Part shown: positions 18,047 to 24,108 of the stretch, piece after piece
How the letters are laid out: every line of letters starts with the position of its first letter
Numbering within the stretch: the stretch's first letter is position 1
Assembly: GCA_013153105.1 (NCBI GenBank)
Contig: JAADFC010000068.1
Span: 1-36,950 of the forward strand
Length of the DNA stretch: 36,950 nucleotides
Reading direction: 5' to 3'
Source: Thermoproteota archaeon
Lineage (GTDB): Archaea; Thermoproteota; Thermoprotei_A; Sulfolobales; Pyrodictiaceae
Notes under the pieces: model-generated
Databases searched by the model: none
What the model was told of the DNA's origin: nothing
Seen by the model: the letters and a program-made list of their open reading frames with translations, nothing else
Made by a program: the position numbers and the translations under genes

Positions 18047-18496
18047 CCTAAGAACCCCCTCAACCTTCTCGACGTAGCCTCCATTGCGGCCTGGAAAAGA
18101 GCGGTGCTATATGTAGTGGCGCGCCCAGGCCTTGACCCTTCGATGCTCATACGAGAGCCTCCGCCCAGGCTGCGGATGAAAATACTGTTGAGCCTGGAGG
18201 AGCTAGCCGCAGAGCTAGGCGACGATGTGTTCTACCTAGTCCTAGAAACGTATGGGACGGTGCTGCTCAGTGAAGTCGACCTCTCCTCTATGGAGAAGCT
18301 CGCGCTGGTGCTAGGCGCCGAGGACTATGGGATACCGCCCGAGGAGGTGGGGAAGCTCCCTAAGGAGCGTACGGTTGTCGCCAGGATACCATCCACAGTG
18401 CAGGGTATGAGCTACAACGTTGCAAGCACACTTGCCATGGCGGTATACGAGGTGGAGAGGCAGCGGGCGCTTGCCCCTAGAGGGGGAACCCCTTGA
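18020..18496 (+). CDS. SPOUT-superfamily (TrmH/SpoU-like) RNA methyltransferase
   Basis: [20 protein letters not shown] and [24 protein letters not shown] resemble SPOUT motifs 2 and 3. Confidence 0.75.
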
Positions 18497-19082
18497 AACG
18501 GTGGGGCTCAATTATCTTGTACACCTCCTCCTTAAGCGACTTATCCACGGCGAAGGCTCCCCTCACTGCGGCCACCACGGTAGGCGCGGGCGTCTTAACA
18601 CCCCTCATAGCCATGCAGAGGTGTACAGCCTCGCTGACAACCATGACGTCCTGGGAGCTAGTCGCCCTCATAACCTCGTCCGCTATCTGCTTTGTCATCC
18701 TCTCCTGTATCTGCAGCCTCCTAGTATACTTGCGTACAATCCTCACTATCTTGCTCAGCCCGATTACCTTGCCGCGGGGCAGGTAGGCCACATGTACAAC
18801 ACCGAAGAAGGGGAGTAGGTGGTGCTCGCAGAGGCTGTAGAACCGTATGCCCGCCACCACGACTAGGTCGCTCGTCTCTGTGAACCAGGTGTACTCGTCG
18901 CTATACTCGTAGCCCTCGAAGAGTTCTTCGAACATGTCGGCGACGCGTCGAGGCGTCTCGCGGAGCCCCTCTCGCTCAGGGTCCTCGCCTATAGCCTCGA
19001 GTATCATGCGTACAGCCTGCTCAACCTTCTTCTTATCTATGGGCACCCCGGCTACACCCCGCAGCCGGCCGGGACGGCTCAT
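18477..19082 (-). CDS. folE: GTP cyclohydrolase I (bacterial/eukaryal FolE type)
   Basis: [84 protein letters not shown]. Confidence 0.95.
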
Positions 19083-20836: not shown

Positions 20837-21733
20837 ATGCAGCGCCCCGCCGGCCCGTGTGTGGCTCCTGGGTTGAGCCGGGGTAGGGTCATAGCCTTGG
20901 CGGACAGGGGGGGTGTTAGGGTCGCCTGGTGGGATGATGATGCCGCTGAGAGGGCGGCGCGGCTGCTCCGCGGCTACGACCCGGTTAAGGTTTCTGAGCG
21001 CCTTGAACGCCTTGTCGAGAAGGGGTTGGAGCGCAGGTACTTCCGGTTTCGCGGCAGCCGCTTCTATGGCGGCAGCGCGGTCGGGGACGTGGTCCTCTGT
21101 AACCTTCGCTGCGTCTTTTGCTGGACGGGGCCCGCCCGTGACGACCCCCGGATAGGCTTCTGGGTGGACCCCTCCGCGGCGGGGAGGAGGCTGCTCTCCA
21201 TAGCCAGGTCGGAGGGCTACCGGGTTCTCCGCCTCTCAGCCGGGGAGCCGACCCTGGGCAGGCGCCATCTCATAGCTCTGCTGGACTACCTGGCAGCCAG
21301 GCTGGCCGGAGAAGTCTTCGTGCTCGAGACTAATGGCATCCTCCTAGCCTCCGACGGTAGGCTTCTAGAGAGCCTTGAGAGGCACCGGCGGTTTCTCCAC
21401 GTCCGCGTCTCGATAAAAGCCTGCAACCGCTGGTGGTTCCAGCTGCTGACCGGCGCGTCGGCGGACGCGTTTGAGCTACAGCTCAGGGCCGTAGAAATAC
21501 TCGAAGCCTCCAGCCTAAGCTACAGTGTGGCCGTCTTCGCAGCCTTCGGCAGCGACAAGTGCTGGGCCAAGCTGCTCGACCGCCTGGCATCGATAATGGG
21601 CGCCTCAAAGCTCAGGGACAGGATTGAGGTGGAGGCACCCGTCTTATACCGGCATGCAAGGCGCAGGCTCCAAGGCGTATCTAGGCTTGTGCGCCTGGAG
21701 CCCAGGCCCGAGATGACCTACCCGCCCGCCTAG
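20837..21733 (+). CDS. Radical SAM protein, uncharacterised
   Basis: CNLRCVFCW (CX3CX2C), LSAGEPTLG, VFVLETNGILLA, RVSIKACNRWWFQLLTG. Confidence 0.85.
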   Translation: MQRPAGPCVAPGLSRGRVIALADRGGVRVAWWDDDAAERAARLLRGYDPVKVSERLERLVEKGLERRYFRFRGSRFYGGSAVGDVVLCNLRCVFCWTGPARDDPRIGFWVDPSAAGRRLLSIARSEGYRVLRLSAGEPTLGRRHLIALLDYLAARLAGEVFVLETNGILLASDGRLLESLERHRRFLHVRVSIKACNRWWFQLLTGASADAFELQLRAVEILEASSLSYSVAVFAAFGSDKCWAKLLDRLASIMGASKLRDRIEVEAPVLYRHARRRLQGVSRLVRLEPRPEMTYPPA

Positions 21734-22444: not shown

Positions 22445-23629
22445 ATGACTGGCTTCCGCCTCGTCCTGGGAACGCCGATAAACACCACAGTAAAACCATG
22501 GATGTATATGGACGTTGACGCTGTTATGGTCAACAGCTACGACATATTGAAGGCAGGCAGCCTGGACCGGCTGAGGGGCCGCGGCCTCCGCAGGCTCCTC
22601 GGGATCGGCGACGAGGTGGAGCTGTGGATAGACAGTGGCGGCTACCAGTTCCTAAGCAGAGGTATCACGGTCGACCCTCACAAGATAGCCAGGGTTTACC
22701 GGGAGGTTGACGCGGACTATTACATAAGCCTGGACTACCCCCCGGGTCCGCGTGATGACGCAGACCTTAGAGCCATGAAGATAGCGAAGAGCATAAACAA
22801 CTTCATGACCATGAGGAGCGTGTTACGCGACCATGTAGAGGAGGGCAGACTCGTCCCCGTGTTCCATATAGCGACAAGTGAGAGTCTCCGCCTACAGCTG
22901 CAAGCCTACGTGCCCCATGCAACAACGGCGGCTGTTGGAGGGCTTATACCCTACATAATGCAGCAGGCCGGCAACGGCTCCAGGCTGAAGGCGGTGATGT
23001 TCATGGTTCTCATGAGAAAGCTCTGGGAGGGGAGGCTGCATGCTATGGGCCTGGCGAGCGCCGCCATGATACCTCTCCTCAAGAAAATCGATATCGACAG
23101 CGGCGACACACAGACCTGGAGGCTCAAAGCAGCCTACGGCAAGATAATCATACCCGGCCTAGGGGAGCGCCACATCTCCGGCCAGGCGGTGCGTTTCGGG
23201 CCTGCAAAGCTTGTGAGGGAAAGCGAGCTCCGCCTCTACAGGGAATACATAGAGAAGGCTGTCAGCGCCGGGATAATATCGTCCCCCGAGAGCCTCTCGT
23301 CCAGCTTTGAGGAGCGCGCGCTGTTCAACGCGTGGATCCTAGGGCTCGTGGCGGCTAACGGCACCGGCTACAGTGGCGCCAGCCCCGCCTTCGCCAAGCT
23401 CCACCGCGTGGTTGACGCGCTCAACATGCTTCCCCCGAGCAGGCTCGAGGAGTTGTTGGAGATGCTTCTCGAGGGCTCGATGGACTACTCGCAGGCGGTT
23501 AGGACGGTAATGCAGGAGGCTGTGGGCGTAGTCGAGGAGACCAGGAGCCGCGCAGACGAGGGCGTGGAGCTTCACCGGTACCGGGGAGGCTCCACCCTTG
23601 CGGGCACCGTGGAGGGCGCCGGGGCCTAG
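22445..23629 (+). CDS. tRNA-guanine transglycosylase-like / DpdA-like TIM-barrel protein
   Basis: ELWIDSGGYQFLSRG (TGT/DpdA DSGG(F/Y)Q), LVPVFHIATSESLRLQLQAY, TTAAVGGLIPYI, RLHAMGLASAAMIP, DIDSGDTQTWRLKAAYG; no CxCxxC zinc motif seen. Confidence 0.72.
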   Translation: MTGFRLVLGTPINTTVKPWMYMDVDAVMVNSYDILKAGSLDRLRGRGLRRLLGIGDEVELWIDSGGYQFLSRGITVDPHKIARVYREVDADYYISLDYPPGPRDDADLRAMKIAKSINNFMTMRSVLRDHVEEGRLVPVFHIATSESLRLQLQAYVPHATTAAVGGLIPYIMQQAGNGSRLKAVMFMVLMRKLWEGRLHAMGLASAAMIPLLKKIDIDSGDTQTWRLKAAYGKIIIPGLGERHISGQAVRFGPAKLVRESELRLYREYIEKAVSAGIISSPESLSSSFEERALFNAWILGLVAANGTGYSGASPAFAKLHRVVDALNMLPPSRLEELLEMLLEGSMDYSQAVRTVMQEAVGVVEETRSRADEGVELHRYRGGSTLAGTVEGAGA

Positions 23630-24108
23630 GCTATCACCACCCTGTTCCCCCCGCTCCGCTTCGCCCTCCGCAGCAGGGTTAGGGCGAGGCGCCTGGTAGG
23701 AGTAGCCGTGTAGGCCCTGCGCCGGTCGCCACGCCGCTCCACGAGCCCCACGTACCCGTAGACGGCTACTATGGTTACTCCAACGCCGAGCCTGTTCAGC
23801 TCCTCCCTTATCCGCTCGAGATCTTCCCGCAGCTCCTCCGGCCGCGTCAGCGGGAACTCAACGATAGCCTCCTCAGTACCCCGCTCCTCGTCCAGCCCGT
23901 AGACCAGGTAGCCGCCCCACCTCCTGACTAGCTCCTCCACAAGCCTCGTTAGTAGACCAGTGGCGGGGTTTGGACTGTACTCGCTCCAGCCCCTCTCCTC
24001 CACAACCTCCCCAAACCTATCCAAGTCGATTATCACCACGGTACCCTCGACCAAGCCCCGCCCCGGCGTCTCGATGTATCGTCTGCCCACGGTCTGCTCA
24101 CCCTCCAC
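23626..24108 (-). CDS. Nucleotidyl-cyclase-fold protein resembling a single domain of GTP cyclohydrolase III
   Basis: VVIIDLDRFGEVVEERGWSEYSPNPATGLLTRLVEELVRRWGGYLVYGLDEERGTEEAIVEF: strand-helix-helix-strand with a PNP motif like archaeal GCH III. Start GTG at 24108 or 24090. Confidence 0.6.
   Translation of the reverse strand: MEGEQTVGRRYIETPGRGLVEGTVVIIDLDRFGEVVEERGWSEYSPNPATGLLTRLVEELVRRWGGYLVYGLDEERGTEEAIVEFPLTRPEELREDLERIREELNRLGVGVTIVAVYGYVGLVERRGDRRRAYTATPTRRLALTLLRRAKRSGGNRVVIA

Follow-up and report, generated by a model that had tools for sequence, protein, structure and literature searches.

A cellular, DpdA-like TGT family of heat-loving archaea and its usual ArcS-like partner

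The TGTx gene, its surroundings and its conserved residues

The window, that is, the whole stretch of DNA analysed here, comprises 36,950 nucleotides of a Pyrodictiaceae genome (labelled G000). It carries a gene for a predicted TGT-fold transglycosylase that we call TGTx, a clade label given here to the window protein and its relatives. The gene, its neighbors and the residues discussed below are collected in Table 1. The original prediction had assigned to exactly this reading frame five motifs in the order expected for a TIM barrel, and all of them are found: WIDSGGYQ, VPVFHIATSES, AAVGGLIP, HAMGLAS, and DIDSGDTQTW. The N-terminus agrees with that of the relatives (M[TG][GA]FKLILGTP).

Table 1. 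Coordinates of the features in the window and of the conserved residues of TGTx.
Feature	Position	Strand	Remarks
FolE (GTP cyclohydrolase I)	18477..19082	-	syntenic with TGTx in Pyrodictiaceae
Radical SAM protein	20837..21733	+	upstream of TGTx in 10 Pyrodictiaceae loci
TGTx ORF	22445..23629	+	ATG start, 394 aa; predicted TGT-fold transglycosylase without zinc site or PUA domain
DSGGYQ, residues 63-68	22631..22648	+	D63 invariant in 53 members; aligns with D95 of ArcTGT (profile vs. 1iq8)
D97	22733..22735	+	invariant in 53 members; aligns with base-recognition D130 of ArcTGT (profile vs. 1iq8)
H199	23039..23041	+	invariant His of the H-x-x-G motif, common to phage DpdA
DTQTW, residues 221-225	23105..23119	+	D221 invariant in 53 members; aligns with nucleophile D249 of ArcTGT
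GERH, residues 240-243	23162..23173	+	family-specific; G240 and E241 invariant, R242 nearly invariant
160-aa protein	23626-24108	-	weak diguanylate-cyclase similarity; convergent with TGTx; kept in 7 Pyrodictiaceae loci

In other organisms, preQ0 synthesis begins with FolE, and QueC is encoded in the window's genome; a functional link between FolE and TGTx is only suggestive. Since the upstream radical SAM gene is often present where TGTx is missing, its role here is unproven. As an analogue of RaSEA it was rejected on the same ground and because no RaSEA model matched it.

Residue conservation was counted on a family alignment of 53 TGTx members, which also served for structure modelling. The family-specific GERH motif occupies the place from which the ArcTGT chain runs on to its zinc site. 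H199, invariant in the 53 members, aligns with H186 of the R7M phage DpdA. A conserved histidine is known at position 196 of DpdA and is missing from DpdA2 (PMC6884629); its equivalence to H199 is not established. None of the 394 residues of the window protein is a cysteine, and no family member among the 53 has a CxCxxC motif, which bears out the predicted absence of a zinc site. This motif is also missing from the five phage DpdA proteins compared, and it is kept in ArcTGT, in one haloarchaeal and one cyanobacterial plasmid TGT, and in a second Pyrodictiaceae TGT family. The PUA domain had likewise been said to be absent: neither it nor a DUF5591-like C-terminal domain gave a Pfam match in the window protein, and the C-terminus is a short α-helical extension in the predicted structure.

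Profile and structure searches were required to place the window protein. Pfam gave nothing meaningful, PADLOC only a weak TGT match, and phmmer with the single sequence little in the PDB; the viral_contigs scan found no relative. The protein matches phrog_887 (phage TGT) with E=1.3e-11, and the NCBIfam ArcTGT model TIGR00432 with E=2.2e-7 and 29.7 bits, far below the cut-off of 350. The family profile matches ArcTGT (1iq8) with E=5e-13 and a solved DNA-guanine transglycosylase (7ui4) with E=5e-5. The AlphaFold model, built from the 53-relative alignment, has a mean pLDDT of 91.8 and a pTM of 0.89. With Foldseek, its best PDB match is again 1iq8 (E=3.3e-11, probability 1.00), and bacterial TGTs come next. 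The nearest predicted viral structure is a TGT-like protein of a rod-shaped virus, and the Vibrio phage nt-1 protein R9TGF0 is among the matches. Judged by this model, the window protein has a TGT-superfamily fold and not that of another TIM barrel.

Distribution and phylogeny

TGTx occurs in 17 of 20 Pyrodictiaceae genomes, the three lacking it being 67-78% complete. Among 250 Thermoproteota genomes, 39 gave strong matches and two weaker ones. Among the named carriers are Pyrodictium, Pyrobaculum, Vulcanisaeta, Caldivirga, Ignisphaera, Sulfolobales and Njordarchaeota metagenome-assembled genomes (MAGs). Identity is 54-66% within the family, about 30% between the window protein and the viral TGTs of STSV1/2/4 and rudiviruses, and about 22% towards ArcTGT. 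As the original prediction had suggested checking, a separate canonical ArcTGT is present in the window's genome (G000:C60, with DSGAYQ, DSASY, and CxCxxC); many other TGTx carriers encode one as well.

In a maximum-likelihood TGT tree of 63 rows, 34 cellular TGTx proteins together with the STSV and rudivirus TGTs form one clade (support 99/99). ArcTGT is split off with 100/100, and the window protein is thus not a member of the ArcTGT clade. The viral proteins nest with Sulfolobales inside the TGTx clade (100/100). The phage DpdA clade (100/98) lies outside TGTx yet nearby. TGTx is therefore a distinct clade, apart from ArcTGT and near phage DpdA, with the reservation that the root is assumed, since ArcTGT was used as outgroup.

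Like the phage DpdA proteins of the 9g/CAjan type, TGTx is a short TGT without CxCxxC or PUA, and both groups have PxFH, HxxG, D[ST]x[ST]W, AAYG-like, and RAxxNxW blocks. TGTx differs in its separate clade, its cellular and chromosomal setting and its GERH motif; DNA activity is unproven. The original prediction held TGTx to be more like DpdA than like ArcTGT. The loss of zinc site and PUA domain, the shared blocks and the tree neighborhood support this, whereas profile comparison alone favors neither, phage DpdA and ArcTGT scoring about equally. With ArcTGT (TgtA), TGTx shares the fold and the catalytic residues, but it is distant in the tree, lacks both zinc site and PUA domain, and coexists with the canonical enzyme. 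The STSV and rudivirus members differ in being viral, and their annotation goes no further than queuine tRNA-ribosyltransferase or hypothetical. A DpdA subfamily specific to archaeal viruses is known as DpdA4; whether it includes the STSV and rudivirus TGTs is not established.

The ArcS-core partner and DNA-handling neighbors

Neighborhoods were clustered over 66 loci. In several lineages, a standalone DUF5591 protein with the ArcS core lies directly downstream of TGTx. This partner, S1, adjoins TGTx in Sulfolobales, Njordarchaeota and other MAGs. The same pair is carried by STSV1 (ORF18-ORF19), STSV2, and STSV4, and in STSV1/4 the two genes are in overlapping frames. STSV1 ORF19 matches the ArcS model NF040592 with E=1.6e-20. 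The partner has a PCx3KPY motif, the core motif of archaeosine synthase ArcS, whose fuller form is of the type PCx3KPYx2Sx2H. In the alignment of S1 with a second group, S2, PC, K, and P are invariant and Y82 and S85 nearly so; the final H often gives way to another residue in Pyrodictiaceae.

The DUF5591 tree gives an S1 clade made up of TGTx-linked proteins and of unlinked Pyrodictiaceae copies, including that of the window's genome (G000:C40). It parts S1 from the transporter- or RaSEA-linked S2 and from RaSEA-DUF5591 fusions. Pooling all short DUF5591 proteins as TGTx partners was rejected on account of this split. Proteins of 450-480 aa, once candidates for full ArcS, proved to be fusions of RaSEA with DUF5591. 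S1 was found in 18 of the 250 Thermoproteota genomes, 17 of which also have TGTx (Fisher p=2.6e-14, relatedness ignored); conversely, 17 of 19 TGTx genomes have S1 if the two Thermoproteales families are left out. Thermoproteales have TGTx without S1, and no S1 was found in the rudiviruses carrying TGTx. RaSEA (TIGR01210) has no match in Pyrodictiaceae at E<=1e-30.

Two further observations concern DUF5591 and its surroundings. One S2 member (L192) is flanked by a queuosine-precursor transporter on one side and a RaSEA-like gene on the other, and crenarchaeal S2 proteins and RaSEA-DUF5591 fusions (L192, L187-L190) are probably a tRNA archaeosine branch. In two Pyrodictiaceae genomes, a TIGR03916 "DNA modification/repair" radical SAM gene is directly beside S1 (L154 7317-8381, L159 5139-6197), and in three others a gene of this type is within about 2-3 kb of S1.

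Of 39 genomes, 10, from about five lineages, encode a HerA-type ATPase (PF01935) no more than 5 kb from TGTx, against an expectation of 1.2. TGTx, S1, HerA, a 1015/1020-aa protein and a 235-aa protein form an operon in L090 and L204; in L082 the order is TGTx, S1, NurA, HerA and a coiled-coil ATPase. A related TGT shares an operon with a PCNA-like clamp, DUF5591, HerA, and a 1174/1463-aa protein (L093 3691-11516, L162 2072-10852), and in several phages, too, the DpdA gene adjoins a sliding clamp gene. In Pyrodictiaceae, S1 is unlinked to TGTx, and TGTx has no HerA gene next to it; the case for DNA is thus drawn from relatives of the window gene.

Proposed function and alternatives

By analogy with the ArcTGT and ArcS/RaSEA tRNA pathway, TGTx and S1 may act in two steps, insertion of preQ0 and then an ArcS-type reaction. 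D221 would attack the sugar of the target guanosine, guanine would leave, and its place would go to a 7-deazaguanine base, preQ0 from the cell's QueC pathway being the most likely one; D63 would be the catalytic acid/base and D97 would read the base. S1 would then convert the inserted preQ0 in the way in which ArcS works on tRNA; the product would be archaeosine or a base of the preQ0-lysine type, the latter being considered because no RaSEA was detected. ArcS uses preQ0 in tRNA as its lysine acceptor and accepts even the free preQ0 nucleoside, so that tRNA is not essential for it, and its product is reported to block the reverse exchange (PMC11298593). For S1 itself, such a second step has genomic support only.

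That TGTx carries out a TGT-type base exchange is very likely in our judgment, even if catalysis itself is inferred. Its substrate is probably DNA, since it lacks a PUA domain and a zinc site, falls in one clade with viral TGTs and near those of phages, and has relatives linked to DNA-handling genes; moreover, the canonical ArcTGT in the same genome would already serve G15 of tRNA. This too is an inference, as it was in the original prediction, and an unusual RNA target is not excluded. The complete reading, insertion of preQ0 into DNA by TGTx and its conversion by the ArcS-like partner, is held with moderate confidence, with catalysis, donor, substrate and product all inferred. We found no report of measured 7-deazaguanine in crenarchaeal DNA.

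Several findings count against this reading or would suit a second RNA transglycosylase, one that modifies tRNA at a position different from G15, or rRNA, with preQ0 for conversion there by S1. TGTx is near-universal in Pyrodictiaceae and widespread in Thermoproteales, as expected of a housekeeping RNA enzyme, its profile is as similar to ArcTGT as to phage DpdA, and tRNA is what ArcS and its relatives act on (PMC11298593). The unlinked S1 and missing HerA neighbors of Pyrodictiaceae, the Thermoproteales without S1, the rudiviruses in which none was found, and the position of the L093/L162 TGTs, with their clamp and HerA operons, outside the TGTx clade also weaken the complete reading. We nevertheless regard RNA modification as possible but rather unlikely: no PUA or other recognized RNA-binding domain is found in the window protein, dsDNA viruses carry the same TGTx-S1 pair, the neighbors include HerA, NurA and clamp-like proteins, and the separate RaSEA-linked S2 clade and the RaSEA-DUF5591 fusions look like the tRNA branch.

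The HerA enrichment and the operons of L090, L204 and L082 could also point to restriction-like defence, in which TGTx and HerA, with NurA where present, would use a DNA base to mark self. In bacterial Dpd and BREX-Related Capture (BRC) systems, ATP-dependent DNA translocases, HerA among them, accompany a TGT homologue (PMC12839542). We consider this unlikely for the family, given that Pyrodictiaceae and many Thermoproteales have TGTx without an adjacent nuclease or HerA, that the conserved chromosomal synteny in Pyrodictiaceae is unlike a mobile defence island, and that the PADLOC match is only a weak TGT one. DpdB/DpdC, PglZ, and BREX genes were not identified beside TGTx in the loci examined, and the second enzyme of TGTx loci is ArcS-like, in contrast with Dpd/BRC. 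Finally, the lost zinc site and PUA domain and the low identity to ArcTGT might suggest a divergent or decayed ArcTGT without activity of its own. This is very improbable in view of the invariant catalytic aspartates in 53 diverse members, the strong conservation within the family, and the activity on DNA of zinc-less phage DpdA (PMC6884629).

The description that fits TGTx best is that of a cellular enzyme of DpdA-like character whose partner arrangement is new, with an ArcS-core protein instead of Gat-QueC, and the family suggests a second, little-known base-modification pathway in heat-loving archaea. DNA modification with 7-deazaguanines has been documented for bacteria, for phages, and for one halovirus; a crenarchaeal DpdA-like family of wide distribution, sharing an ArcS-type partner with Sulfolobus viruses, would extend it to hyperthermophile chromosomes. 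One precedent is Vibrio phage nt-1, which encodes DpdA2 and ArcS and whose DNA contains dG+ (PMC6884629). As for biological role, which is likewise inferred, a more speculative proposal, which we regard as possible but rather unlikely, is that a housekeeping chromosomal TGTx-S1 pathway puts archaeosine or lysine-bearing preQ0 into the DNA of hyperthermophilic Thermoproteota, and that STSV1-like viruses acquired the pair from their hosts. If true, ArcTGT/ArcS would have a counterpart in a second pathway of the archaeosine type. STSV1 DNA was reportedly described as unusually modified in the 2005 genome paper by Xiang et al.; TGTx and S1 could be the genes behind that modification. A direct test of DNA modification is feasible in cultured TGTx-bearing species.

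In four Pyrodictiaceae genomes (G012, G014, G015, G007; loci L155, L156, L157, L158), the second, zinc-site TGT family is accompanied by a HerA ATPase, to which at least G012 adds a NurA-like nuclease; these loci are a candidate restriction-like DNA-modification system. On the haloarchaeal plasmids L168, L180, and L181, TGT genes adjoin QueC/QueD/QueE/FolE genes and genes for BREX-type ATP-binding proteins.
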